NCBI GenBank assembly: GCA_021785975.1
Contig: JAJYOE010000009.1
Span: forward strand, 1-45,650
Direction: 5' to 3'
Length of the DNA stretch: 45,650 bases
Origin: Bacillota bacterium
GTDB lineage: Bacteria; Bacillota; Bacilli; Alicyclobacillales; SLC66
Part shown: positions 1-10,638 of the stretch, piece after piece
Layout: each line of letters starts with the position of its first letter
Position numbering within the stretch: position 1 is the stretch's first letter
Translations under genes and position numbers: made by a program
Notes under the pieces: generated by a model
Told to the model about the DNA's origin: nothing
What the model saw: the letters and a program-made list of their open reading frames with translations, nothing else
Databases searched by the model: none

Positions 1-2830
1 TGGCTTCTGCTACCTGTCTGTCTTCCTCAAGGTTCGCATAGGTTTCGTCTGCTAATTGGCGGGTGCCGACTTTTTTCGAAAGCTCTTCGTATGCTTTTTT
101 TGTATCGATTGTGATACCTTTTGCCGAGATGCTTTTTTTGGCGAGCGGACCAAACGTCGTCATTTGGTCGTACAGCTTCGTATAATCACGGGTCACCCTC
201 ACCAGTTTGGGCATTGTTTTGCCCGGAATGGGATCGACTTCGCCCTTCTTCCAGTCCTTCACCTTCCCGTGCGGTTGTGCGAGTTCATCTGGCGAATCGT
301 GGGAAAGTGGCGCCATCACGATATCATCGACTTCTGGCAGCGCATCTTTTGCGAGCGCAGAAAATGTTTTTGCAATGGTGCGAAACGCGTCCCAATCGCT
401 CTTTGTCTCCCAGGGACGGGAGATTGCCGCCTGAAAGGGATGAATAAACGGATGCATATCCGTCGTACTGAGATCATTTTTTTCATACCAGGTGGCAGCC
501 GGAAGGACAATGTCTGAATACAGGCCGCTGCTGGTCATGCGAAAATCAATATCGATTAAAAGGTCCAATTTGGCTTCCGGCACCTGTTCGCTCATCTTGA
601 TCGTATCCGGATGCCAGGAAGTCTCTGCATCCGCAAAGACATGGCCATCTGCACCAAGAAGGTGCTTTAGGAAATACTCATGTCCTTTGCCGCTTGCCCC
701 AAGCAAATTGGATCGCCAAACAAAGAGGACGCGCGGGAAGTTCCTTGGGTCGTCAGGGTTCTCGACGGCAAATTCAATCTCTCCTTGCTTCAGACCATTT
801 GCCACTTGTTGGACGATTTCTTCCGTTGTGGTGGCCCCTTTGGATTTTGCCGCCGCCACCACATCGAGCGAATTCTGCGTCCACTGCGGGAAAGACGGCA
901 ACCAACCGAGCCTTGCAGCCATGGCATTGACGTCTGCCGGATGCATCCCTTCAAAGCGGCCAGGGTGTCCCGATTCGTTTGAAGTCGTATTTTTTTCCTC
1001 ATAGCGGTACTGTTCTGTCGCAAAATAAAAGAAAGATGTACCATTTTGCTGGCGCGGCGGACGAACCCAATCGAGTGCAAATGCCACAGTCGCCCAACCT
1101 TCTTGAGGGCGCACCTTTTCTTGTCCCACGTAATGCGCCCAACCACCGCCATTCACCCCTTGACAGCCAGTCAAGAGGACCAAATTCAAAATCGAGCGGT
1201 AGATCAAGTCACTGTGATACCAGTGGTTGGTTCCTGCTCCCATCGCGATCAGTGAGCGGCCTTTGGTCATCGCCGCATTTTGCGCAAATTCTCTTGCTAC
1301 GCGCGCCGCAAGGTTCCGATCGACGCCCGTGATCGCCTCTTGCCACGCGGGTGTATAAGGACTGTTATCGTCGTAGTCTTTTGGATAATCCCCCGGCAGG
1401 TCTCTGTTCACGCCAACGTGTGCGGCAAACAAGTCAAATACCGTGGTGACGTAAAACGTCTCTTCATGCCCCTGCAACGCTTTCATCGGCACCCCGCGCG
1501 TCACGTGGCGCTTACCGCCCTCTTCAAACACGGGGAACTCCACCAGCGCCTTCTCATCCTCGATGCCAAGGAGGCTTAGCCTCGGCGAAATCGCGTTTCC
1601 GTCCTGATCCTCTGACTTCAAGTTCCACTTTTTGGACTTGTCCCATCGAAAACCAAGACTGCCGTTTGGCACTACCGGGCGGTTGCTGGTTTCATCCCAT
1701 AAAATCGTCTTGAATTCGCCGTTCTCCACTTGATTACCGATATCATTCGCACTTAAAAACCGGTCTGCCACCCATTTGTCGCCCTGTTTTTTCAGCGTCA
1801 CAAGAAAGGGCAAATCGGTATACTGTTTTGCGTAATCGATAAAATACGGTTCAGCGTGATCGATATAAAATTCTTTCATAATGACATGCGTCATCGCCAT
1901 CGCAAGCGCCGCATCCGTGCCTGCACGAGCAGCGAGCCATACGTCCGCAAACTTCACGTATTCCGCATAATCCGGGCTCACACTCACCACTTTCATACCT
2001 TTATAGCGAGATTCCACCATAAAATGCGCGTCCGGCGTCCTCGTCATTGGCAGGTTGGTCCCCCAAATGATCATGTAAGACGCGTTGTACCAGTCAGCGC
2101 TCTCCGGCACGTCCGTCTGCTCCCCCCAAATCTGCGGCGAAGCGGGTGGCAAATCTGCATACCAGTCGTAAAAGCTGAGTATGGTGCCACCAAACAGCGA
2201 CAAGAAGCGGGATCCTGCCGCATAGCTGACCATTGACATGGCAGGAATCGGGCTGAATCCCACCACCCGGTCTGGCCCGTATGTTTTCGCAGTATGTAGC
2301 ATCGAAGCAGCAATGATTTCACTCACTTCCTGCCAATTACTGCGCACAAGACCTCCTTTGCCACGAGCCTTCTTGTAACGTGCCGAACGGTTCCTGTCGT
2401 TCACGATGCGCTCATACGCCTCTACGGGTGATGTGCCTTTCGCGCGTTCTTCCCGCCACATTTCAAGCAATTCCCCGCGCACATAAGGATACTTCACGCG
2501 AAGTGGGCTGTACGTGTACCAAGAAAAGCTGGCGCCACGAGCGCAGCCCCTTGGTTCATATTCCGGCACATCCGGGCCAAGCGAAGGATAGTCTGTTTTT
2601 TGCGTCTCCCAGGTGATGAGTCCGTCTTTCACGTACACATTCCAACTGCACGAGCCCGTGCAATTGACGCCATGCGTCGACCGGACCACCTTGTCGTGTT
2701 GCCAGCGCCCTCGATATAAATCTTCCCACGCGCGGGAACGGGGGCTCTCCTCTGACCATTTTTGATTAAATACCTCTCCTCGCCGCAAAAAATGCAGCCG
2801 GCCATTCCTTACCTTGTGACGTTGATCCAT
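1..2830 (-). CDS. narG: Respiratory nitrate reductase alpha subunit NarG (3' end outside window)
   Basis: This is the catalytic molybdenum subunit of the membrane-bound quinol:nitrate reductase, which reduces nitrate to nitrite at the cytoplasmic face. The visible 943 codons begin at an ATG preceded by GAAAGGATAGG and run off the left edge; the family is about 1,220 residues, so roughly the last quarter is missing. The [4Fe-4S] FS0 ligands are visible as His53-x3-Cys57-x3-Cys61 and Cys96 in EPRGCARGASFSW. The molybdenum-ligand aspartate lies in WYADLPPASPQ near residue 225, followed by QTDVPESADWYN, which is close to Bacillus NarG. There is no Tat signal, as expected for cytoplasmic NarG. It is the third gene of an operon, 6 bases after the 90-residue unknown gene. 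narH, narJ and narI would be expected beyond the left edge. Identity is certain; only the C-terminus is unseen. Confidence 0.97.
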   Translation of the reverse strand, partial: MDQRHKVRNGRLHFLRRGEVFNQKWSEESPRSRAWEDLYRGRWQHDKVVRSTHGVNCTGSCSWNVYVKDGLITWETQKTDYPSLGPDVPEYEPRGCARGASFSWYTYSPLRVKYPYVRGELLEMWREERAKGTSPVEAYERIVNDRNRSARYKKARGKGGLVRSNWQEVSEIIAASMLHTAKTYGPDRVVGFSPIPAMSMVSYAAGSRFLSLFGGTILSFYDWYADLPPASPQIWGEQTDVPESADWYNASYMIIWGTNLPMTRTPDAHFMVESRYKGMKVVSVSPDYAEYVKFADVWLAARAGTDAALAMAMTHVIMKEFYIDHAEPYFIDYAKQYTDLPFLVTLKKQGDKWVADRFLSANDIGNQVENGEFKTILWDETSNRPVVPNGSLGFRWDKSKKWNLKSEDQDGNAISPRLSLLGIEDEKALVEFPVFEEGGKRHVTRGVPMKALQGHEETFYVTTVFDLFAAHVGVNRDLPGDYPKDYDDNSPYTPAWQEAITGVDRNLAARVAREFAQNAAMTKGRSLIAMGAGTNHWYHSDLIYRSILNLVLLTGCQGVNGGGWAHYVGQEKVRPQEGWATVAFALDWVRPPRQQNGTSFFYFATEQYRYEEKNTTSNESGHPGRFEGMHPADVNAMAARLGWLPSFPQWTQNSLDVVAAAKSKGATTTEEIVQQVANGLKQGEIEFAVENPDDPRNFPRVLFVWRSNLLGASGKGHEYFLKHLLGADGHVFADAETSWHPDTIKMSEQVPEAKLDLLIDIDFRMTSSGLYSDIVLPAATWYEKNDLSTTDMHPFIHPFQAAISRPWETKSDWDAFRTIAKTFSALAKDALPEVDDIVMAPLSHDSPDELAQPHGKVKDWKKGEVDPIPGKTMPKLVRVTRDYTKLYDQMTTFGPLAKKSISAKGITIDTKKAYEELSKKVGTRQLADETYANLEEDRQVAEA

Positions 2831-2836
2831 CGCGAT

Positions 2837-3109
2837 CTACCTATCCTTTCTCGTGCCCTGCGAGTTTTGGTATCCCGGTTGCTGATCGATGCGAAAGGCG
2901 CTTGGTCCCGCTTTCCACTCTTCTTCGAATGCCTCATAATTCGGGGCATTTGCCGCCACCAGAATCATCCGTTCCAAAAAATCGCCATCATCCACACGGG
3001 AAACCGCCTCTTCCCACTGACTGATATTTTTATTGAAACGCATCCTGATAAGCGCCAATAAATCGGCTCGATCCTGATGCAGCGCTTCAGTCATCCATAC
3101 CTCGTCCAT
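2837..3109 (-). CDS. Small protein of unknown function in the nar operon
   Basis: A 90-residue soluble protein that I do not recognise. It starts with an ATG placed directly after the TAA of the hemerythrin-like gene and ends 6 bases before narG, so the three are almost certainly cotranscribed and perhaps translationally coupled. The sequence is predominantly helical and acidic in the first 70 residues (LLALIRMRFN, ISQWEEAVSRVDDGDFLERMI, ANAPNYEAFEEEW), with a polar, probably disordered tail. There are no cysteines, no membrane segment and no signal peptide. It could be a small accessory or assembly factor for the nitrate reductase or a partner of the hemerythrin-like protein; that is inference from position only. 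Confidence 0.7.
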   Translation of the reverse strand: MDEVWMTEALHQDRADLLALIRMRFNKNISQWEEAVSRVDDGDFLERMILVAANAPNYEAFEEEWKAGPSAFRIDQQPGYQNSQGTRKDR

Positions 3110-3553
3110 TTACCAGACCCCTTCTTCCCACTGGGTTAAAAATTTCTCTTCACTATCACTGTGAATTTGCACCAGCTTCAAGAACCCTTCCGCGTACATC
3201 ACCACTTCATCCAGTGATTCTCCTTCTTGGAGCTTGTGCTCCATCTCCATCACAAAGCGCTCCATCAAAAAATGATCACGGCGAAAGCCAAGTACAATGG
3301 GCTTCACGTCCTCGTTTTCCATTAGTTCAAGGTACCAGTCCGCCTCTTCTTCCCTGGCATGCTCCAAGGTTGACTCTCGCCAGTGCTCACAAAGGGCCTG
3401 AAGTGCCCTTGACGCTTCCTCCATTTTTCCGTTTGCAAGAAGTGACTTGGCAAGCATGGTGAGATCCGTGCCCTCCCCTGCAGCAGCCAAATGAATCAAG
3501 TGATGACTATCCGCTTTTCTAAGCGCTGGTCCGCTCACAACCAGTCCCCCCAT
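3110..3553 (-). CDS. Hemerythrin-like HHE-domain protein, first gene of the nar operon
   Basis: The 147 residues form four probable helices carrying the metal-ligand pattern of HHE cation-binding domains: His17/His18 in the first helix, His65-x3-Glu69 in the second, His94 in the third and His131-x3-Glu135 in the fourth. The two H-x3-E helices are arranged symmetrically, as expected for a di-iron four-helix bundle. Related proteins bind oxygen or nitric oxide or take part in iron-sulfur repair; which applies here is not visible. Standing first in an operon with narG, and behind a putative Fnr site, suggests protection against or sensing of nitrogen oxides or oxygen. The start is uncertain: the ATG has only a weak upstream GAAAG, while an internal GTG at 3538 (residue 6) follows GGGGGGA at 6-base spacing. 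Confidence 0.8.
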   Translation of the reverse strand: MGGLVVSGPALRKADSHHLIHLAAAGEGTDLTMLAKSLLANGKMEEASRALQALCEHWRESTLEHAREEEADWYLELMENEDVKPIVLGFRRDHFLMERFVMEMEHKLQEGESLDEVVMYAEGFLKLVQIHSDSEEKFLTQWEEGVW

Positions 3554-3577
3554 CGTCTGTTACTTTCAAGTGATTAC

Positions 3578-3620
3578 ATTTTAATTTTTCATTTACCTGA
3601 CCTATGAGAGATTTATCACA
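3578..3620 (-). promoter_or_regulatory. Putative Fnr/CRP-type operator and promoter of the nar operon
   Basis: On the minus strand TGTGATAAATCTCTCA (3605-3620) matches the Fnr/CRP-family site TGTGA-N6-TCACA with one mismatch in the second half. A -10-like TAAAAT lies at 3578-3583. If transcription starts 7 bases beyond it, at about 3571, the operator centre is at -41.5, the standard class II activator position. No good -35 hexamer is present, which fits an activator-dependent promoter. The leader before the hemerythrin-like gene would be under 40 bases. Confidence 0.55.
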
Positions 3621-3664
3621 CTCTACTTGCAATCTCATATATTTCTTAAAAAGTTCACATTTTG

Positions 3665-3683
3665 CGGTTCATTACGGTTCATT
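3665..3683. repeat. Two direct repeats of CGGTTCATT with a 10-base period
   Basis: CGGTTCATT occurs at 3665-3673 and again at 3675-3683. The 10-base spacing places both copies on the same face of the helix, about 94-112 bases upstream of the predicted nar start point. It may be a second regulator site (for example a response regulator), but the protein cannot be named from sequence. Confidence 0.4.
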
Positions 3684-3691
3684 TTGATAAC

Positions 3692-3713
3692 AAAAAAAGA
3701 GCCTTTCGGCTCT
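3692..3713 (-). terminator. Rho-independent terminator after the 6S RNA gene
   Basis: On the minus strand AGAGCC-GAAA-GGCTCT is followed by seven T. It lies about 35 bases downstream of the closing stem of the 6S RNA and separates it from the nar promoter. Confidence 0.85.
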
Positions 3714-3744
3714 CCGTTCCCTACTCTAATCCAATATGTTATTG

Positions 3745-3930
3745 ATACTCACCCGCACATGCCGTACAGAACACGTGTTTTCGAACCCGCTCTCGCAGGT
3801 GGGAGACTCGCGCTTCGATCTTTGGCTTCCCTTCAAGAGGGCCTGTCAGCACGAAGTCGTATTCCTGTCTCCCTTTTAACACGTAAGGTTCAAAACATAA
3901 GTCGTTCGTACGTGCAGCGCAGGTGAGATT
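3745..3930 (-). ncRNA. ssrS: 6S RNA
   Basis: The transcript would fold into one long hairpin with paired ends, the hallmark of 6S RNA. The 5' end CTCACC (3922-3927) pairs with the 3' end GGTGAG (3748-3753), and CGTAC pairs with GTACG further in. A central open region is followed by an inner stem GGGAGAC/GTCTCCC and an apical CTTGAAG-type loop. The 5' half carries GTTTTGAACCTTACG and then AAAAGGGAG, which I recognise from Firmicutes 6S RNAs. The length of about 185 nucleotides is typical. 6S RNA binds the sigma-A RNA polymerase holoenzyme by mimicking an open promoter and lowers transcription in stationary phase. The gene has its own promoter and terminator. Exact ends are estimates; a covariance-model search (Rfam 6S) would settle it. 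Confidence 0.8.
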
Positions 3931-3959
3931 ATGTTAACAAGTGAAGGCGTGAATTGCAA
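3931..3959 (-). promoter_or_regulatory. Sigma-A promoter of the 6S RNA gene
   Basis: On the minus strand TTGCAA (3954-3959) and TAACAT (3931-3936) are separated by exactly 17 bases. Initiation about 7 bases further would begin the RNA at the CTCACC closing stem. No terminator lies between this promoter and the stop of the preceding ligase gene, so read-through into 6S is also possible. Confidence 0.6.
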
Positions 3960-3993
3960 CAAGGAATAATCGGTAATCATGGAATGGATGCTT

Positions 3994-5076
3994 TTACTTT
4001 ATCATACCCTGATAGCGATTTTCCATACGCCTGGCAATGCTCGTGAGACTTTCCATCAATCGACGCTTCCCATATTGCTCGATGTCCCGTTCATCAAATT
4101 TCATCGGTTTGGCATTGGCTTCAAATAAAATCGGTCTTCCATCCGGCGACACGCTGGCATCCAATGAAAGTTCAGTCCATGTACCCGGCGTACGAGCGAT
4201 GGCAGTTGCTGCTACTTCTCCCACTCTCACGAGTTCACTGATCATGACGTCCCGATCGCTACCAAAGACCTCGGAAAATACCTGTTCCACCTTTGCGCGC
4301 GTTCCTCCATTTGGCACATGCGTGGTGACGCTTCCGATTGGTGCGCTACGTATTGCCATCCCGGTCACTGAAAAACCTTTATCGGGTTGACGATGAAGCA
4401 GCATCCGCACATCAAACCGGCGACCATTCCAGACTGCGGTGGTGGCTTCCTCCTGCAACAGGTACCGGCCATATTTCCTTGATCGTTGCAAAAAGTCATC
4501 AAGTTGATGCCACGTTAAATTCCCATAATCCATGAGTCTGCCCTTTAATTGCTCACGAAGGGATAGCCCCGCTGCATTTTTTTGGAGATGGATCATCCCG
4601 ATTCCCGCTTTACCAGCGATCGGTTTTAGGTACAATGAAGACCTCTCCTCCAGCCAGCGGGCGATGTCACTGGAATCCATCAAGCGTTCCGAATCCAGAA
4701 GATAATCGCGAAGAAAATTACTTTTTCGCCAAATGTCCACGAGTTCCCATTTCGTTAAAAAATGAGGATTGGTAATAATGTGACCGTCGCTCTCCCATTC
4801 CTCCATTCGCCTGCGGATGTTAGCAGAGTTTTCGAGATGCCTACTGGGGATCCGGTTGTAAAGAACTGATGACAGAGATGATGTTGAACGCGGTTCAAAT
4901 TCCCTGCGTTTTTCCGACCAAATGTAAGGGGCTATCGTCCCGTTTCGATTTATCTGAAAAAGCGACATCGTATGCCCCATCTGGTTCGCCAATTTGCCTA
5001 ATCGCTTAAAATGAGCGATATTCCCTCCAATTTCTCCATCATGGCCACCCGCAGTTAAAATCCCAATGCTCTCCAT
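3994..5076 (-). CDS. YheC/YheD-family ATP-grasp protein, copy 1 (last gene of ligase operon)
   Basis: A 360-residue ATP-grasp ligase of the YheC/YheD family, described as endospore-coat-associated in Bacillus. The N-terminal third is a pre-ATP-grasp domain with the family motif LYNRIPSR. The ATP-grasp fold follows, with YLKPIAGKAGIGM (phosphate-binding lysine and glycine loop), LLQEEA, RRFDVRMLL, THVPNGG and the metal-binding end ELSLDASVSPDGRP...FEANAKP. All look intact, so a carboxylate-amine or carboxylate-thiol ligase activity is plausible; the substrate is unknown. The start chosen overlaps the previous stop as TGATG and follows AAGGAGTGGTATCC; an upstream ATG at 5112 would overlap the previous gene by 37 bases and has no better ribosome site. 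It is transcriptionally last in a five-gene set after cotE. Confidence 0.88.
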   Translation of the reverse strand: MESIGILTAGGHDGEIGGNIAHFKRLGKLANQMGHTMSLFQINRNGTIAPYIWSEKRREFEPRSTSSLSSVLYNRIPSRHLENSANIRRRMEEWESDGHIITNPHFLTKWELVDIWRKSNFLRDYLLDSERLMDSSDIARWLEERSSLYLKPIAGKAGIGMIHLQKNAAGLSLREQLKGRLMDYGNLTWHQLDDFLQRSRKYGRYLLQEEATTAVWNGRRFDVRMLLHRQPDKGFSVTGMAIRSAPIGSVTTHVPNGGTRAKVEQVFSEVFGSDRDVMISELVRVGEVAATAIARTPGTWTELSLDASVSPDGRPILFEANAKPMKFDERDIEQYGKRRLMESLTSIARRMENRYQGMIK

Positions 5077-6146
5077 CAGGATACCACTCCTTGATATGCG
5101 ATTGTTTTCCACTCATTTTCAGACAGGGACACAGCGTAATCAACGAGAAGTTGCAAGGAATACGCATTCGCATCGCGGAGAAATGGCGTGTGAAAAATGG
5201 ATCGACCCGGTTTAGCATTTGCTTCAAAAAGCACGAGTCTCCCGTCTCTTGAAAACCCCATATCGAGTCCCAACTCTCCTAGCGTCGGTTCATGTGTGTC
5301 GCAAAGGTTCCTGCTGATGGTTAACGCCGCCTTTTCCATTGCATCATATGCGGCATCTGCCTGTTTATGAAACCACTGATCTAGTACCGTCTGTCTGTCC
5401 GCAATGCTTCCTCCACTTCGAACATGAGTGGTGACTGCCCCTTTTGCGGCCACCTTTGCTGCGCACCCTGTCACAGTAAACTCTCCGTCTGGTTTCCGTT
5501 GGACATGCACGCGAAAATCTGTTTTTCTGTCGCGATACGTACGAAGCGGAATTTCCTCTTGGATAATCCATTGATGATGGCCAAGCTTACGCTTCACAAA
5601 AGAAAAAAACTCCTTTTTGCTACCTAGAGTTGTGACTTCCACTCCGTTCGCGCTTCTCATTTCCACAAAAAAACGCGACCCCATTTTTTCAAGTCTGTAA
5701 ATTCCTTCGCCCAAACTGCCGGAGATCGGTTTGACGTAGAGTGAACCAAATTGATGTAACCCCGACAGAATCTCCTCTGGTTCCCATGAGTACCATGAAG
5801 TCGGAAGATATTGGGCCGTCTCGACACATTTTCGCAAGCACCTGTCCACTTCGCGTTTGTTAAAAAAACGCGAATTAAAGACCGGAATCTGTGCCCTCGC
5901 AAGCCATCCTTTTGCCGCTTTCGTGATAGGATCAAACTCCTCTTTGCGGGTGGGAATGCGATTATAGACCACCGTAGGCAAGAGTTTGCGCACTTCTACT
6001 CTTTGTGATGACTGCAAATCCTCAGGTGTCAGGCGAAATGCCTTTACCCCGGACTGTTCAGCAGTACGCAACACGGAGCGGATATAATGAGAATTCCAAT
6101 TTTTCCTGCTGACTAGTATCCCTAAGACCGGACGCTGTGGCGCCAT
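5076..6146 (-). CDS. YheC/YheD-family ATP-grasp protein, copy 2
   Basis: A 356-residue relative of the neighbouring ligases. It has the YNRIPTRKEE motif in the N-terminal domain, then YVKPISGSLGEGIYRL (ATP phosphate loop), IIQEEIPL, KTDFRVHVQ, THVRSGGS, and LGELGLDMGFSRDGR...FEANAKP at the metal site. All ATP-grasp signatures are complete. The chosen ATG follows AGAAGGTG at 6-7 bases and lies 17 bases after the amidoligase stop; an in-frame ATG 69 bases upstream would overlap that gene. Coupled by TGATG to copy 1. Sharing an operon with an amidoligase and following cotE suggests it modifies a coat component or builds a small coat-linked peptide. That is inference; no substrate of this family is visible. 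Confidence 0.88.
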   Translation of the reverse strand: MAPQRPVLGILVSRKNWNSHYIRSVLRTAEQSGVKAFRLTPEDLQSSQRVEVRKLLPTVVYNRIPTRKEEFDPITKAAKGWLARAQIPVFNSRFFNKREVDRCLRKCVETAQYLPTSWYSWEPEEILSGLHQFGSLYVKPISGSLGEGIYRLEKMGSRFFVEMRSANGVEVTTLGSKKEFFSFVKRKLGHHQWIIQEEIPLRTYRDRKTDFRVHVQRKPDGEFTVTGCAAKVAAKGAVTTHVRSGGSIADRQTVLDQWFHKQADAAYDAMEKAALTISRNLCDTHEPTLGELGLDMGFSRDGRLVLFEANAKPGRSIFHTPFLRDANAYSLQLLVDYAVSLSENEWKTIAYQGVVS

Positions 6147-6163
6147 TATTACACCTTCTCTCG

Positions 6164-7612
6164 TTAGGAAGCGGCACTTCGTTTTTTGAGGGATGAAGAT
6201 TGCGGTAATCCCCAAGCCGTCCTGATATCCAACGACTCATCCCATACCTCGTCTTGTCGGATCATCGTAAAAATCGGTTCGATCACTTCCTGATATTTGG
6301 CGTAAGTCTTCGTTTTCTCAAGTTCTCTCACCGCTTCTTCCAGTAAAGTAAGCAGGTAATCCCTGTCATTTTTATAAAACGCTCTGGCAAAATCCTGACG
6401 ATGCAGCGGCAAGTAGGGCAATTCGTGGTGATGGTGGATAATGGTAAACGCGAGTGCAAACGCTGCATAAGTGATTTGTGGGTCAACGAGAAAGCTTGCC
6501 GGTGTCCGATATTCGAATCCCCCGTAATCTTTAACTCGGATGTCGCCCAAAAACCCATATTTCGGCCTTCGACGGCTCGATGTTTCTGGATCCTCAATCA
6601 GCATCAGCGGCAAGCCTAAATAGATATCGAGCATGTTGATTAGTCGTGCTGATAAGGGGACACCGCTGAAGTGGAGATGCCCTCCAATGGGATAGCGGAC
6701 AAAAGGGGCGCTCCCAGCGAGCCATTCCGGATAGGGACGTTTGGCAAGTTGGGTCGCTTTTTTCAGCACTTTTTTTACATTGACGAGTAGCGCTTCCGGC
6801 GTGTCAGCAGGATCTGGTCTGATTTCTGCAAGCGGTCTGCGATTTCTGTCTCCTGCAAAGGTTCGATCGTCACAACCGACCATCCCTTTTTGCGGAAAAT
6901 ACCTTGAGGCCATCACCATTTTCCCCTGTTTTGAGCGCAACATGAATTCAAGATCTGTTCCCATCAACAAATGGCGGTAATCCGGATGCTGATTTTTTTC
7001 CTCCTGGTTCATCCATTCCTTCACCGCATCGGCAAAGAGCTCTAATGTTCTCCCTTTTAACACAGGAGTGGCCGCCACATCGAGCACCACTTGCCGCGAT
7101 TTGGAAAGTACCCCCAAACTGACGAGGCCAAATTCAAGACCAAGAGAATGTACGGCCCTTACGGCAAGTTGTGTGATTTTTTTTGTCTCTTCATCCAATT
7201 CACACGGCACTTCCACAAATGAATCGGTAATCTGATTGATCCGCTTGCTAAGCCAGACTGACTTATTTTCTGTGCGAAAGCAGCTGAGCGCCTTGAGGTC
7301 AAACACAGGAACCCGGTAGTGGCGATGCAGCTGCATTTTCACTTCTGCGTCTTCCTCTGCGCTGCGACTACGCGGACACGAGATCCCTGCCCTGCGCAGT
7401 GACCGGAGTAGTGTCCGTCTCGAATCGGCGCTAAGAAGGGCATCCCTGCGATTCACGGTCCACCCTAAATCGAGATCCTCCGTATTTCCAAAACGAATGA
7501 CCCGATCATTGGTACCGATTCCTTTCACATCCTGGACAGGCAACAGTCCGTTCACCTGTTTTGCCAGTCGCGTTGCCGATGCCTGCCCGCCGTGGAGAAG
7601 AAAAAATCGCAT
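6164..7612 (-). CDS. Amidoligase (phiEco32-like COOH-NH2 ligase type 2) with ATP-grasp-like N-terminal region
   Basis: 482 residues in two parts. Residues from about 216 are a glutamine-synthetase-fold carboxylate-amine ligase of the phage phiEco32-like type: GTDLEFML, GCDDR, PLAEIRPDPADTPEAL, GGHLHFSG and GFEYRTPASF carry the expected Glu, Glu, His and Arg positions. The first 215 residues resemble the end of a YheC/YheD ATP-grasp protein that has decayed: RFGNTEDLDLGWTVNR, then LGLEFGLVSLGVLSKSRQ and VVLDVAATP where the active relatives have an E-x-N metal motif. The second part could form amide or peptide bonds using ATP; the first may now only bind substrate. The start follows GGAGG at 8 bases, 12 bases after copy 3. 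It is the central gene of the five-gene operon. Confidence 0.85.
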   Translation of the reverse strand: MRFFLLHGGQASATRLAKQVNGLLPVQDVKGIGTNDRVIRFGNTEDLDLGWTVNRRDALLSADSRRTLLRSLRRAGISCPRSRSAEEDAEVKMQLHRHYRVPVFDLKALSCFRTENKSVWLSKRINQITDSFVEVPCELDEETKKITQLAVRAVHSLGLEFGLVSLGVLSKSRQVVLDVAATPVLKGRTLELFADAVKEWMNQEEKNQHPDYRHLLMGTDLEFMLRSKQGKMVMASRYFPQKGMVGCDDRTFAGDRNRRPLAEIRPDPADTPEALLVNVKKVLKKATQLAKRPYPEWLAGSAPFVRYPIGGHLHFSGVPLSARLINMLDIYLGLPLMLIEDPETSSRRRPKYGFLGDIRVKDYGGFEYRTPASFLVDPQITYAAFALAFTIIHHHHELPYLPLHRQDFARAFYKNDRDYLLTLLEEAVRELEKTKTYAKYQEVIEPIFTMIRQDEVWDESLDIRTAWGLPQSSSLKKRSAAS

Positions 7613-7624
7613 GACATGCCCCTC

Positions 7625-8767
7625 CTATACGCCTTTTTTTAATGTTCGACGGGAACCGGCATATAGGTACATGGCATAGAGAAGCGGCCGCTCCAGCGCC
7701 CGTTCCACCAATTGCAAAGTGCCTCGAGAAGTTTCGACGTTTTTCCGGGGTTTTGAATTGACTTCCAAAAGGTATACATGCCCAGCCTGATCGACACCAA
7801 AATCAAGCCCCAATTCGCCAAGTGTCCTTTTTGATTTTTGTTCGATGACATCAGGCAGTAGTTTGACCAGGTTTTTTAACTCTTTGCGCATTCGTTCGTA
7901 AGCGGGGATTGGCAACTCGCCTTTCAGCACGGTGATGGCAAAAGCCTCTCCGCCTGATGACAAGTTGGATACAAACTCCCCTTTGGCAGCTAATCGAATG
8001 TAGGTTTTTGATCTCTTCCATTCACCGCGTTCATTTTTTTGCAAGAGTACCCGTATGTCGAGAGGACGATGGTCTACCTCTAATAGCGCAATCCCTTCTT
8101 GCAGTAAATAAGGCTTTTTTGCCGCACGAGTTGTTAGATAATCGTTGATCAACTCGCAATCACCTGCAGATTTCATTTCTTTAATCGCGTACTTTTGTCG
8201 AATCATCGCTTGCCATCCTTCTTCTTGGTGAGTCAGTTTGATTATTCCTCTGCCAAGACTGCCATGAATCGGTTTGATAAAAATCACAGGATACATCGCG
8301 CAAAATTCTTTTAAGTGAACTGGCGAATAGCTGGTCGTTCTCGGTAAGTGATCTGCCAATTCCTGAACCTCACTCAGCCATTCGAATACTTCCCACTTGT
8401 TGAAATAGCCATCGTTAAAAATGACTGCATGTTTACGTAAAAAGTGGCGTTTCGCTGCAATCGCTTTAGCCGTCTCGTACTTTCTCGATAAAATCTGGTC
8501 GTAAATCACTTTTGGCAGAGAAAAGGTCGCTTTTACAATTGTTTCGTCAGCATCCCTATCCATGTGGCTGAGGACATACCCCGTCAGCATCTTGTTTTCC
8601 ACATCTACCTCTTTGGGATCAAAGACACAAGCCAACCATTTGTTTTTATTTGCAATTTGCAAATAGTGAGCTAAAAGTGCCCCCTGGTGGCCGACAAATG
8701 CGCCATCTTCAAATCGAACACGAGCCATAATGCCAATCTCAGGACGCAATAGCGATTCAATGATCAT
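7625..8767 (-). CDS. YheC/YheD-family ATP-grasp protein, copy 3
   Basis: A 380-residue ATP-grasp ligase. Its N-terminal domain has VIYDQILSRKYE in place of the usual YNRIPxR, so it is a more divergent copy. The catalytic fold keeps IFIKPIHGSLGRGI, LLQEGIALL, RPLDIRVLLQ, LSSGGEAF and LGELGLDFGVDQAGHVYLLEVNSKP, which includes the lysine, the hinge glutamates and the two metal-binding acidic residues. The ATG follows AAGGGGAAGACTCCA and is 16 bases after copy 4, so the genes are cotranscribed. Probable ligase of unknown substrate; spore coat association is inferred from family and from cotE nearby. Confidence 0.87.
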   Translation of the reverse strand: MIIESLLRPEIGIMARVRFEDGAFVGHQGALLAHYLQIANKNKWLACVFDPKEVDVENKMLTGYVLSHMDRDADETIVKATFSLPKVIYDQILSRKYETAKAIAAKRHFLRKHAVIFNDGYFNKWEVFEWLSEVQELADHLPRTTSYSPVHLKEFCAMYPVIFIKPIHGSLGRGIIKLTHQEEGWQAMIRQKYAIKEMKSAGDCELINDYLTTRAAKKPYLLQEGIALLEVDHRPLDIRVLLQKNERGEWKRSKTYIRLAAKGEFVSNLSSGGEAFAITVLKGELPIPAYERMRKELKNLVKLLPDVIEQKSKRTLGELGLDFGVDQAGHVYLLEVNSKPRKNVETSRGTLQLVERALERPLLYAMYLYAGSRRTLKKGV

Positions 8768-8783
8768 TGGAGTCTTCCCCTTG

Positions 8784-9899
8784 TCAGGTATTGCGAGTGG
8801 TCAGATAGTTGGCATAATCCACGATACGCTCGAGGGATTGAATTCGCCAATCCTTGGATACCGTCCTCAACATCCGCCTTCCGGGACAAGGATTGATTTC
8901 GAGAAAGTACACTCGTCCCGCCTCATCGACAGCAAAATCAATCCCCAGTTCAACGAGAGGAGGATAGGCTCGTTGAAACCATTGAAACACTTTGCGGGCT
9001 ACTTTCTTTCCTTCTTCCATGCCACGTTGCCAACGCATCGCCTGATCATACGACAGCATAGACAGAATCTTTCTAGGTGTAAGCGCTTGACCGCCAGTAT
9101 GAAGATTGGTGGTCACGCCACTTTTTTTGCCTACTCTCGCAATCACAGTCACGTTCGGTTGGCGATGGTCTGGCATTGCCTGCACCAGGTAACGCAGATC
9201 GATGGGTTCACCATTTTTTGTCCTCAATAGTTCAATGGTTTCCTGCAAAATCGCTGTATGACCGGAGAGACGGCCATTCACTTCCTGCCACAGTCCCTCT
9301 TTGTCTTCTGCCGAAAACGCCTTGATTTGCCTTTGGCTTGCCGCCAGCAGAAGCGCGTTCTCTTCCCGTTGAATTCTCATGATGCGATTTCCCTGCGATC
9401 CCAGCACAGGTTTGATGTAACAGTCGGTGAGGGAATCAAGCAATGGGAAAAACTCACTTGGCTGCCTCAAGATGAACGTTTCCGGCAAGTAAGTGCGCAG
9501 GAAAGCATCTTTTTGCAACTGTTGATACACTTTCCATTTATTGCTCATTCTTCGGGGCAAAGTAATCAACTGACTGTCTTTTTCCAGACGTTCTTCTTCC
9601 GAAATGATCACTCGTTTCATCGAAGCGGGATAATTGACCATTCGTCGAAGAACTACTTGTGGCCACTCGACGGGTGATTTTTCCCATTCGCCACTGCCTG
9701 CTCTTGTGTGTTGCAAACGATACCCTTCTAGTGCCAAACCAGCAGGTTTTAAAAACCCGGGAACCAACACAAAAAAATCCCATTCTCTAGCAGTCGCAAC
9801 TGCCGCCAAATCTTTCAACAATTGATCCTGCGAGCCAAATTTCCTGTCTTTCCCCAAATCCGCGTACACGGCAAGCGCACGTTTCAAATCCTTTTCCAT
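8784..9899 (-). CDS. YheC/YheD-family ATP-grasp protein, copy 4 (first gene of ligase operon)
   Basis: A 371-residue ATP-grasp ligase and the most divergent of the four. The YNRIPxR motif is replaced by VVLRRMVNYPAS, and SNKWKVYQQL marks the join to the ATP-grasp fold. That fold retains YIKPVLGSQGNRIMRI, ILQETIELL, IDLRYLVQ, THLHTGGQ-like TNLHTGGQA and VELGIDFAVDEAGR...FLEINPCP, so catalysis is likely preserved. The ATG chosen is preceded by GGGGGTG at 6 bases. The reading frame stays open for 26 more codons upstream, but that part would be translated through a terminator hairpin and is judged non-coding. It opens the five-gene operon, 80 bases after cotE. Confidence 0.85.
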   Translation of the reverse strand: MEKDLKRALAVYADLGKDRKFGSQDQLLKDLAAVATAREWDFFVLVPGFLKPAGLALEGYRLQHTRAGSGEWEKSPVEWPQVVLRRMVNYPASMKRVIISEEERLEKDSQLITLPRRMSNKWKVYQQLQKDAFLRTYLPETFILRQPSEFFPLLDSLTDCYIKPVLGSQGNRIMRIQREENALLLAASQRQIKAFSAEDKEGLWQEVNGRLSGHTAILQETIELLRTKNGEPIDLRYLVQAMPDHRQPNVTVIARVGKKSGVTTNLHTGGQALTPRKILSMLSYDQAMRWQRGMEEGKKVARKVFQWFQRAYPPLVELGIDFAVDEAGRVYFLEINPCPGRRMLRTVSKDWRIQSLERIVDYANYLTTRNT

Positions 9900-9924
9900 T
9901 CGGGACACCCCCAGCGGGTCTCGC

Positions 9925-9951
9925 AAAAAAAGGGCGCTCTTCACGAGCCCC
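9925..9951 (-). terminator. Terminator-like hairpin between cotE and the ligase operon
   Basis: On the minus strand GGGGCTC-GTGAA-GAGCGCCC (one bulged base) is followed by seven T. It lies 28 bases after the cotE stop and only about 13 bases before the ribosome-binding site of the next gene, with no clear promoter between, so partial read-through probably feeds the operon. Confidence 0.75.
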
Positions 9952-9979: not shown

Positions 9980-10528
9980 TTATCTTGCTGTGCTTGAACT
10001 TTCCTCTACGCTTTCTTCCTCAAGATAGCTTTCTGAAAAATCACTAAAGCTTTCTTTTTTGGGCGTCGGATCACAGACCATGACCCATAATTTTGTACGG
10101 CCAATGAGTTCTGCCTGATGTCCCATCTCAATGGTTACCACCACTTCCCCTGACTCCTCGTTCAGCACTGCATCTAGGCAGTTGGGATCTTGAAGCATGC
10201 GAACCTCTACTGATGTTTCTTCAAATGTGCCTTTGGGGTCCATCTCGTCTAGAGGGACTTCAACGGTATAAGCCACGGAATCTTTAGCCACTGTGGTCTC
10301 TGAGTTGTCGTGATAGGAATACCACAGATTCAAATCAAACCGGCCGTGAATTTCCACGATATTTTCGATGAGCGTTCCTTTGCAATGATGGTTCATCACC
10401 CAACAACCGCCTATGGTCGTTGGCGGATTTTCCGGTTTTAGGGAAAACGTCTCTGTGGTGTATTTCGTCCCCTTACCGCATATCGCCTGGGTGATAATTT
10501 CGCGACAAATCGAATCTTTTGCGATCAT
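9980..10528 (-). CDS. cotE: Outer spore coat morphogenetic protein CotE
   Basis: 182 residues, against 181 in B. subtilis CotE, which organises the outer spore coat from the mother cell. The N-terminus REIITQAICGKGTKYT, then WVMNHHC, the block VEIHGRFDLNLWYSY, LQDPNCLDAVL and AELIGRTKLWVMV all align by eye with the B. subtilis protein. The last 25 residues are a tail rich in Glu and Ser (SYLEEESVEESSS), comparable to the acidic tail of known CotE. The ATG follows GAGGAGG at 9 bases. In B. subtilis mutS follows cotE; here a set of ATP-grasp ligase genes does. Upstream, CATAGAGATA is only a weak match to a sigma-K -10 element. Confidence 0.95.
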   Translation of the reverse strand: MIAKDSICREIITQAICGKGTKYTTETFSLKPENPPTTIGGCWVMNHHCKGTLIENIVEIHGRFDLNLWYSYHDNSETTVAKDSVAYTVEVPLDEMDPKGTFEETSVEVRMLQDPNCLDAVLNEESGEVVVTIEMGHQAELIGRTKLWVMVCDPTPKKESFSDFSESYLEEESVEESSSTAR

Positions 10529-10611
10529 CGCGCTAATCCTCCTCTTTCATGAGCCCTTGTTCTGTACTCCTATCTCTATGCCATCTGCCCATATTTGGTG
10601 AGGACCCTAAT

Positions 10612-10638
10612 AAAAAAACGCCGGTGGCCCGGCGTTTT
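10612..10638 (-). terminator. Terminator after the dipeptidase gene
   Basis: On the minus strand CGCCGG-GCCA-CCGGCG is followed by seven T. It begins directly at the stop codon of the M19 dipeptidase and separates it from cotE. The plus-strand T run is shorter. Confidence 0.85.

Follow-up and report, generated by a model that had tools for sequence, protein, structure and literature searches.

To our knowledge, no reaction has been assigned to the YheC/D proteins, which are found in many spore-forming Bacilli. In Bacillus subtilis, yheC and yheD are members of the sigma-E regulon and are raised by SpoIIID (PMC517825), and YheD self-associates strongly, forming rings that later encase the forespore (PMC7911427). 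The locus described here shares with yheC-yheD the family PF14398 and the same ATP-grasp residues, and it may likewise act during sporulation in the mother cell. However, B. subtilis has only two such genes, located elsewhere in its genome, whereas the window (the whole stretch analyzed, 45,650 nucleotides from an incomplete draft genome of 1.36 Mb that is 60.5% complete) carries four in one operon behind cotE, together with a gene for a PF14395 ligase. No PF14395 match was found in the B. subtilis control genome.

The Pfam text for PF14395 ("Phage phiEco32-like COOH.NH2 ligase-type 2") describes a family that adjoins YheC/D and CotE in Firmicutes, and Iyer, Abhiman, Burroughs and Aravind reportedly predicted the link among PF14395, YheC/D and CotE already in 2009; the locus therefore joins an already known kind of system. 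The window protein agrees with the family description in its full-length match and invariant putative active site, but differs from it in an apparent ATP-grasp domain at its N terminus that lacks the ATP lobe, and we know of no published description of such a domain in PF14395 proteins. Beyond the known link, this analysis may add the fusion to an ATP-dead ATP-grasp domain, the four old YheC/D groups, and statistics for the linkage to CotE.

Two further groups of enzymes are close in structure. RimK, LysX, ArgX and TTLL are the best structural neighbors of yhe2 (Z 18–21), and the first three are also neighbors of the N-terminal domain of the PF14395 protein (Z about 16), but at only 15–20% identity. 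The GCS superfamily (YbdK, gamma-Glu-Cys ligase, PafA/Dop) shares the fold of the PF14395 C-terminal domain (Z 14–17), but at 10–15% identity and with a substrate specificity that is not transferable.

Layout and conservation of the operon

The unit begins on the minus strand with cotE (9980–10528), encoding an outer spore coat morphogenetic protein of 182 aa (PF10628, E 3e-48; 164 bits against a cutoff of 25), whose 3′ end at 9980 lies 35 nt upstream of the yhe1 start at 9944; the gene order is shared by relatives and by some of the Clostridia. Five minus-strand genes follow, with gaps of 16, 12, 17 and −1 nt: yhe1 (8784–9944, 386 aa, PF14398 E 1e-55), yhe2 (7625–8767, 380 aa, E 7e-71), the PF14395 COOH-NH2 ligase gene (6164–7612, 482 aa, E 2e-96), yhe4 (5076–6146, 356 aa, E 8e-67) and yhe5 (3994–5076, 360 aa, E 8e-46). 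The sequence-only reading had described five same-strand genes spaced by −1 to 17 bases beside cotE, four of them ATP-grasps and one a phiEco32-like ligase, and both the spacing and the Pfam assignments (PF14398 four times, PF14395 once) agreed with it. The yhe1 start was placed at GTG 9944, which has a good ribosome-binding site (the alternative is ATG 9899, the start used in the sequence-only reading), and the resulting length of 386 aa is identical in the closest relative.

Because an intrinsic terminator (10615–10638, minus strand; 10-pair stem and T run) sits between the M19 dipeptidase gene and cotE, cotE and the five ligase genes look like one unit and would be co-transcribed. The M19 dipeptidase was considered as a member of the system and rejected; it is a conserved neighbor in Alicyclobacillales, yet it is separated by the terminator and was not found in the loci examined elsewhere. 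Directly behind the operon is a 6S RNA gene (RF00013, 72.1 bits; 3746–3928, minus strand), which occupies the same position in loci L095, L096, L097, L099 and L103 and was not found in L107. Since this gene follows yhe5, the terminator at 3715–3696, a candidate for the end of the operon, most likely belongs to the 6S RNA and was assigned to it. Farther downstream (2300–3553, minus strand), two small unassigned ORFs of 147 and 90 aa, neither matching Pfam, come before an apparent narG-like frame, a nitrate reductase alpha-subunit reading made by eye only.

Upstream of cotE is the motif CACC-N16-CATAGAGATA (10571–10600, minus strand), with CACC and CATA starting 72 and 52 nt, respectively, ahead of the cotE ATG. 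The form CACC-N15-17-CATA, which we take to resemble the sigma-K consensus, occurred in 27 of 40 orthologous upstream regions, compared with a shuffle mean of 0.28, a count that is descriptive because the form was chosen by inspecting the same sequences later counted and because the loci are related. Strict sigma-E and sigma-K regular expressions gave no match upstream of cotE. The sigma-K-like motif is suggestive of mother-cell expression, and cotE of B. subtilis has both sigma-E and sigma-K promoters (PMC517825).

Named relatives of the window genome include Sulfoacidibacillus, Ferroacidibacillus and several MAGs; Alicyclobacillus belongs to a neighboring family. PF14395 was present in all 35 of 35 near-complete relatives. 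The neighborhood search that the sequence-only reading had proposed for YheC/D and PF14395 near cotE recovered a conserved order, rny-ymdB-M19-cotE-yhe1-yhe2-ligase-yhe4-yhe5, in all complete loci of the bacterium’s family, so the grouping of the five genes is not due to chance. Alicyclobacillaceae have the same block with one gene replacing yhe4/yhe5, Tumebacillus has the order cotE-yhe-yhe-ligase-yhe-yhe, and in Thermincola and its clostridial relatives a pair of cotE genes is followed by four yhe genes and the ligase. The Syntrophomonas and Heliophilum loci contain YheC/D and the ligase, with no CotE found nearby; the genes lying between the YheC/D genes of Syntrophomonas look by eye like housekeeping genes (HtrA, PfkA, YchF) and were rejected as parts of the system. 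In three Paenibacillus-like genomes (one family of the same class, 6.4–7.3 Mb; so called from size and tail), the ligase gene lies directly behind cotE with no YheC/D gene between or beside them, and at least one of these genomes has a YheC/D array elsewhere, indicating that parts of the cassette can be separated. The number of YheC/D genes beside PF14395 ranges from 0 to 4.

Among 298 genomes drawn evenly from the phylum, PF14398 was present in 38 of 38 genomes with PF14395 and in 54 of 260 others (Fisher p 6e-23), and CotE in 22 of 38 and 12 of 260, respectively (p 6e-15), p-values that overstate independence because the species are related. CotE lay within 7.4 kb of PF14395 in 21 of the 22 genomes holding both and was not detected in 16 sampled PF14395 genomes. 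Judged from sequence, the operon is an old, widely shared sporulation cassette.

The C-terminal tail of the window CotE is acidic and Ser-rich, resembling the acidic tails used by RimK, TTLL and LysX-type enzymes. As a marker of the ligases, such a tail was discarded; it is also found on CotE of Bacillaceae that lack PF14395, and the acidic tail is for this reason a lead only. CotE was reported to be absent from clostridia by Galperin et al. 2012 (PMC3533761), in contrast to the Pfam matches of 88–117 bits (cutoff 25) that we obtained in several clostridial lineages.

Several side observations concern cotE and its surroundings. Six clostridial loci (L145, L148, L149, L153, L208 and L217) have two tandem CotE-family genes. 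The second of each pair is the one next to the ligases, and its product carries a longer acidic tail, which is missing from that of the first. L145 (11089–11454), L148 (11618–12046) and L153 (11235–11639) also encode low-complexity, Met/Tyr/Pro/Phe-rich, coat-like proteins immediately downstream of the PF14395 gene, candidate substrates with a common NYN...P start and a Phe/Pro-rich end. In Alicyclobacillus suci (L126, 4099–6952), cotE is split by a 2.85-kb element with a large serine recombinase, flanked by the 8-bp repeat CAAACGAA, and joining there restores a CotE of 179 aa. A similar element of about 5 kb, also with a large serine recombinase, splits cotE of A. fastidiosus (L128, about 1950–6945), where both cotE halves are present and no clean core repeat was found. 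By its sequence, the cotE-splitting element looks like the sporulation-excised “skin/gin” type, for which a literature search gave instances in sigK, gerE, yabG and spsM.

The YheC/D proteins and the PF14395 ligase

The four window YheC/D proteins scored 157–239 bits against PF14398, compared to a curated cutoff of 26.8. Their ATP-binding lysines, hinge and metal triad are complete (K136, K178, Q234, D249, R251, D336, E349 and N351 in yhe1 numbering), and these residues were invariant in an alignment of 11 diverse YheC/D proteins that included all four from the window, bearing out the earlier description of complete ATP-grasp motifs. The nearest folds to the yhe2 structure model (pLDDT 90.8) were ArgX with LysW (Z 21.4), RimK (21.3), GshB (21.0) and LysX (21.0), followed by DcsG (18.6), TTLL6 (18.4) and TTL (near 18), so the nearest structural neighbors of the model appear to be mostly amino-acid-to-protein ligases. 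Sequence matches of yhe1 and yhe2 were weak and fell on RimK-type ligases, glutathione synthase and MptN, and none of the NCBIfam RimK, LysX and ArgX models reached its cutoff, the best being MptN at 31 bits (cutoff 350) and rimK_fam at 26.5 (cutoff 143.4). The window YheC/D proteins probably work like RimK, LysX and ArgX and do not appear to be members of those families. Ahead of the ATP-grasp part, many YheC/D proteins (e.g., in loci L106 and L149) carry an additional N-terminal region that the window proteins lack.

A tree of 136 sequences, without a fixed root and with local support values from FastTree, placed the window proteins in four groups: groups A (yhe1, 0.997) and B (yhe2, 0.999) lie within Alicyclobacillales with clostridial relatives nearby, group C (yhe4, 0.986) includes the longer Bacillaceae YheC/D, and group D (yhe5, 0.981) includes other Bacilli and Clostridia. 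The four proteins probably represent four old orthologue groups. The sequence-only reading had regarded four YheC/D genes as exceptional next to the two of B. subtilis, a view that did not hold, as arrays of four to five are common in Bacilli. Because most of the sampled Bacilli with the family carry at least four copies (as many as 19, frequently as tandem arrays), the four-gene array looks ancestral and B. subtilis reduced.

The PF14395 protein matched its profile at full length (profile 1–254; 322.7 bits against a cutoff of 25), and its structure model (pLDDT 92.5) has two domains, residues 1–206 and 211–468. The second domain matched YbdK (Z 16.4), plant glutamate-cysteine ligase (15.9), Dop (15.3) and PafA (14.8), with GshA also among the top matches. 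Residues D220, E222, E263, R265, H312, H314, E367 and R369 were invariant in 26 PF14395 sequences, and we presume from knowledge of the family that they are catalytic. The model suggests that the C-terminal domain is an intact glutamate-cysteine-ligase-like ligase domain.

For the first domain, the matches were RimK, ArgX and LysX (Z about 16), but only 181–193 residues aligned to proteins of about 250–294 residues. When secondary structures were compared, residues 144–224 of yhe2, which include the second lysine and the hinge, had no counterpart in this domain, and its metal-triad positions are S165, D178 and A180, which vary in the family. As modeled, residues 1–206 would be an ATP-grasp domain without its ATP lobe, and because the lobe is absent and the metal-triad positions are variable, it may serve in docking and bind no ATP. 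Clostridial proteins of L145, L148 and L149 have a longer, 56-residue stretch where the lobe is missing, perhaps a remnant of it. Comparing profiles of this domain and of YheC/D gave a weak result (hhalign probability 22, E 1e-3); it is the structural match that underlies the assignment to the ATP-grasp fold. A sequence search of solved structures with the PF14395 alignment gave no matches, and in a viral structure library the sole matches were distant ATP-grasps and COOH-NH2 ligases of phages.

Proposed function of the cassette

We give roughly even chances to the cassette being a late mother-cell sporulation operon, comprising cotE and five carboxylate-amine ligases, that post-translationally modifies one or more coat proteins. 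The GCS-like domain of the PF14395 enzyme would activate a carboxylate with ATP and join it to an amine, while its degenerate ATP-grasp domain would hold the peptide or protein substrate. The RimK/LysX/ArgX-like YheC/D proteins would work at the surface of the forespore, adding amino acids to the same coat polypeptides or to different ones, or extending them there, and CotE, with its acidic tail, would be the likeliest client or platform. We infer the timing, catalysis, docking role, substrate and product of the cassette from these comparisons. The mother-cell coat-ligase reading made earlier from the sequence was upheld in its intact ligases and in a link to CotE that is real and old, and the sigma-K-like motif points toward the mother cell. 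It lost the argument from an exceptional four-fold copy number, and the assembly line that it envisaged stays hypothetical.

Amino-acid modification of coat proteins is favored by the genes’ linkage to a coat scaffold, by the folds nearest to their products and by the probable timing. Since YbdK, GCS and GshB are also near neighbors, a small peptide product is possible, and the operon could make a gamma-glutamyl or other non-ribosomal peptide in the mother cell that is packed into the spore or cross-links it. A GCS-type ligase followed by ATP-grasp ligases follows a glutathione-like logic, in keeping with the high rank of YbdK, GCL and GshA as matches to the PF14395 C-terminal domain, the yhe2 matches to GshB (Z 21.0) and DcsG (Z 18.6), and the weak sequence matches of yhe1 and yhe2 noted above. 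However, the unit contains no conserved gene for a transporter, peptidase or carrier, its constant partner is a structural coat protein, and a YheC/D number beside PF14395 that varies from none to four is awkward for a fixed pathway; we regard a peptide metabolite as possible, though somewhat improbable.

The self-association of B. subtilis YheD and its rings encasing the spore (PMC7911427) would also fit YheC/D proteins that are mainly structural and polymerize around the forespore, with ligase activity secondary and the operon a coat-gene cluster. Purely structural proteins would have no need of the residues that are invariant in 11 YheC/D and 26 PF14395 proteins, and this explanation seems unlikely. 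A different possibility concerns the substrate, which could be a Met/Tyr/Pro/Gly coat protein of low complexity whose gene lies elsewhere in the genome; repeat-rich proteins of 121–142 aa start 56–90 nt downstream of the PF14395 gene in the clostridial loci L145, L148 and L153. No such gene was present in most other loci examined, nor behind yhe5 in the window, where the 6S RNA gene follows, and we consider such a substrate very unlikely.

A narrower form of the favored coat-protein modification draws on LysW, the amino-group carrier protein of ArgX and LysX. The CotE tail might act like LysW, with the ligase bearing the ATP-dead domain priming the tail and the YheC/D proteins extending it, so that the scaffold would gain non-templated amino acids on the forespore surface; we hold this to be a speculative and quite unlikely mechanism. 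The close linkage of PF14395 to CotE, together with the bare cotE-ligase pair of the Paenibacillus-like genomes, provides a minimal pair for the question of CotE modification. If CotE is modified, the spore coat would carry an overlooked post-translational layer.
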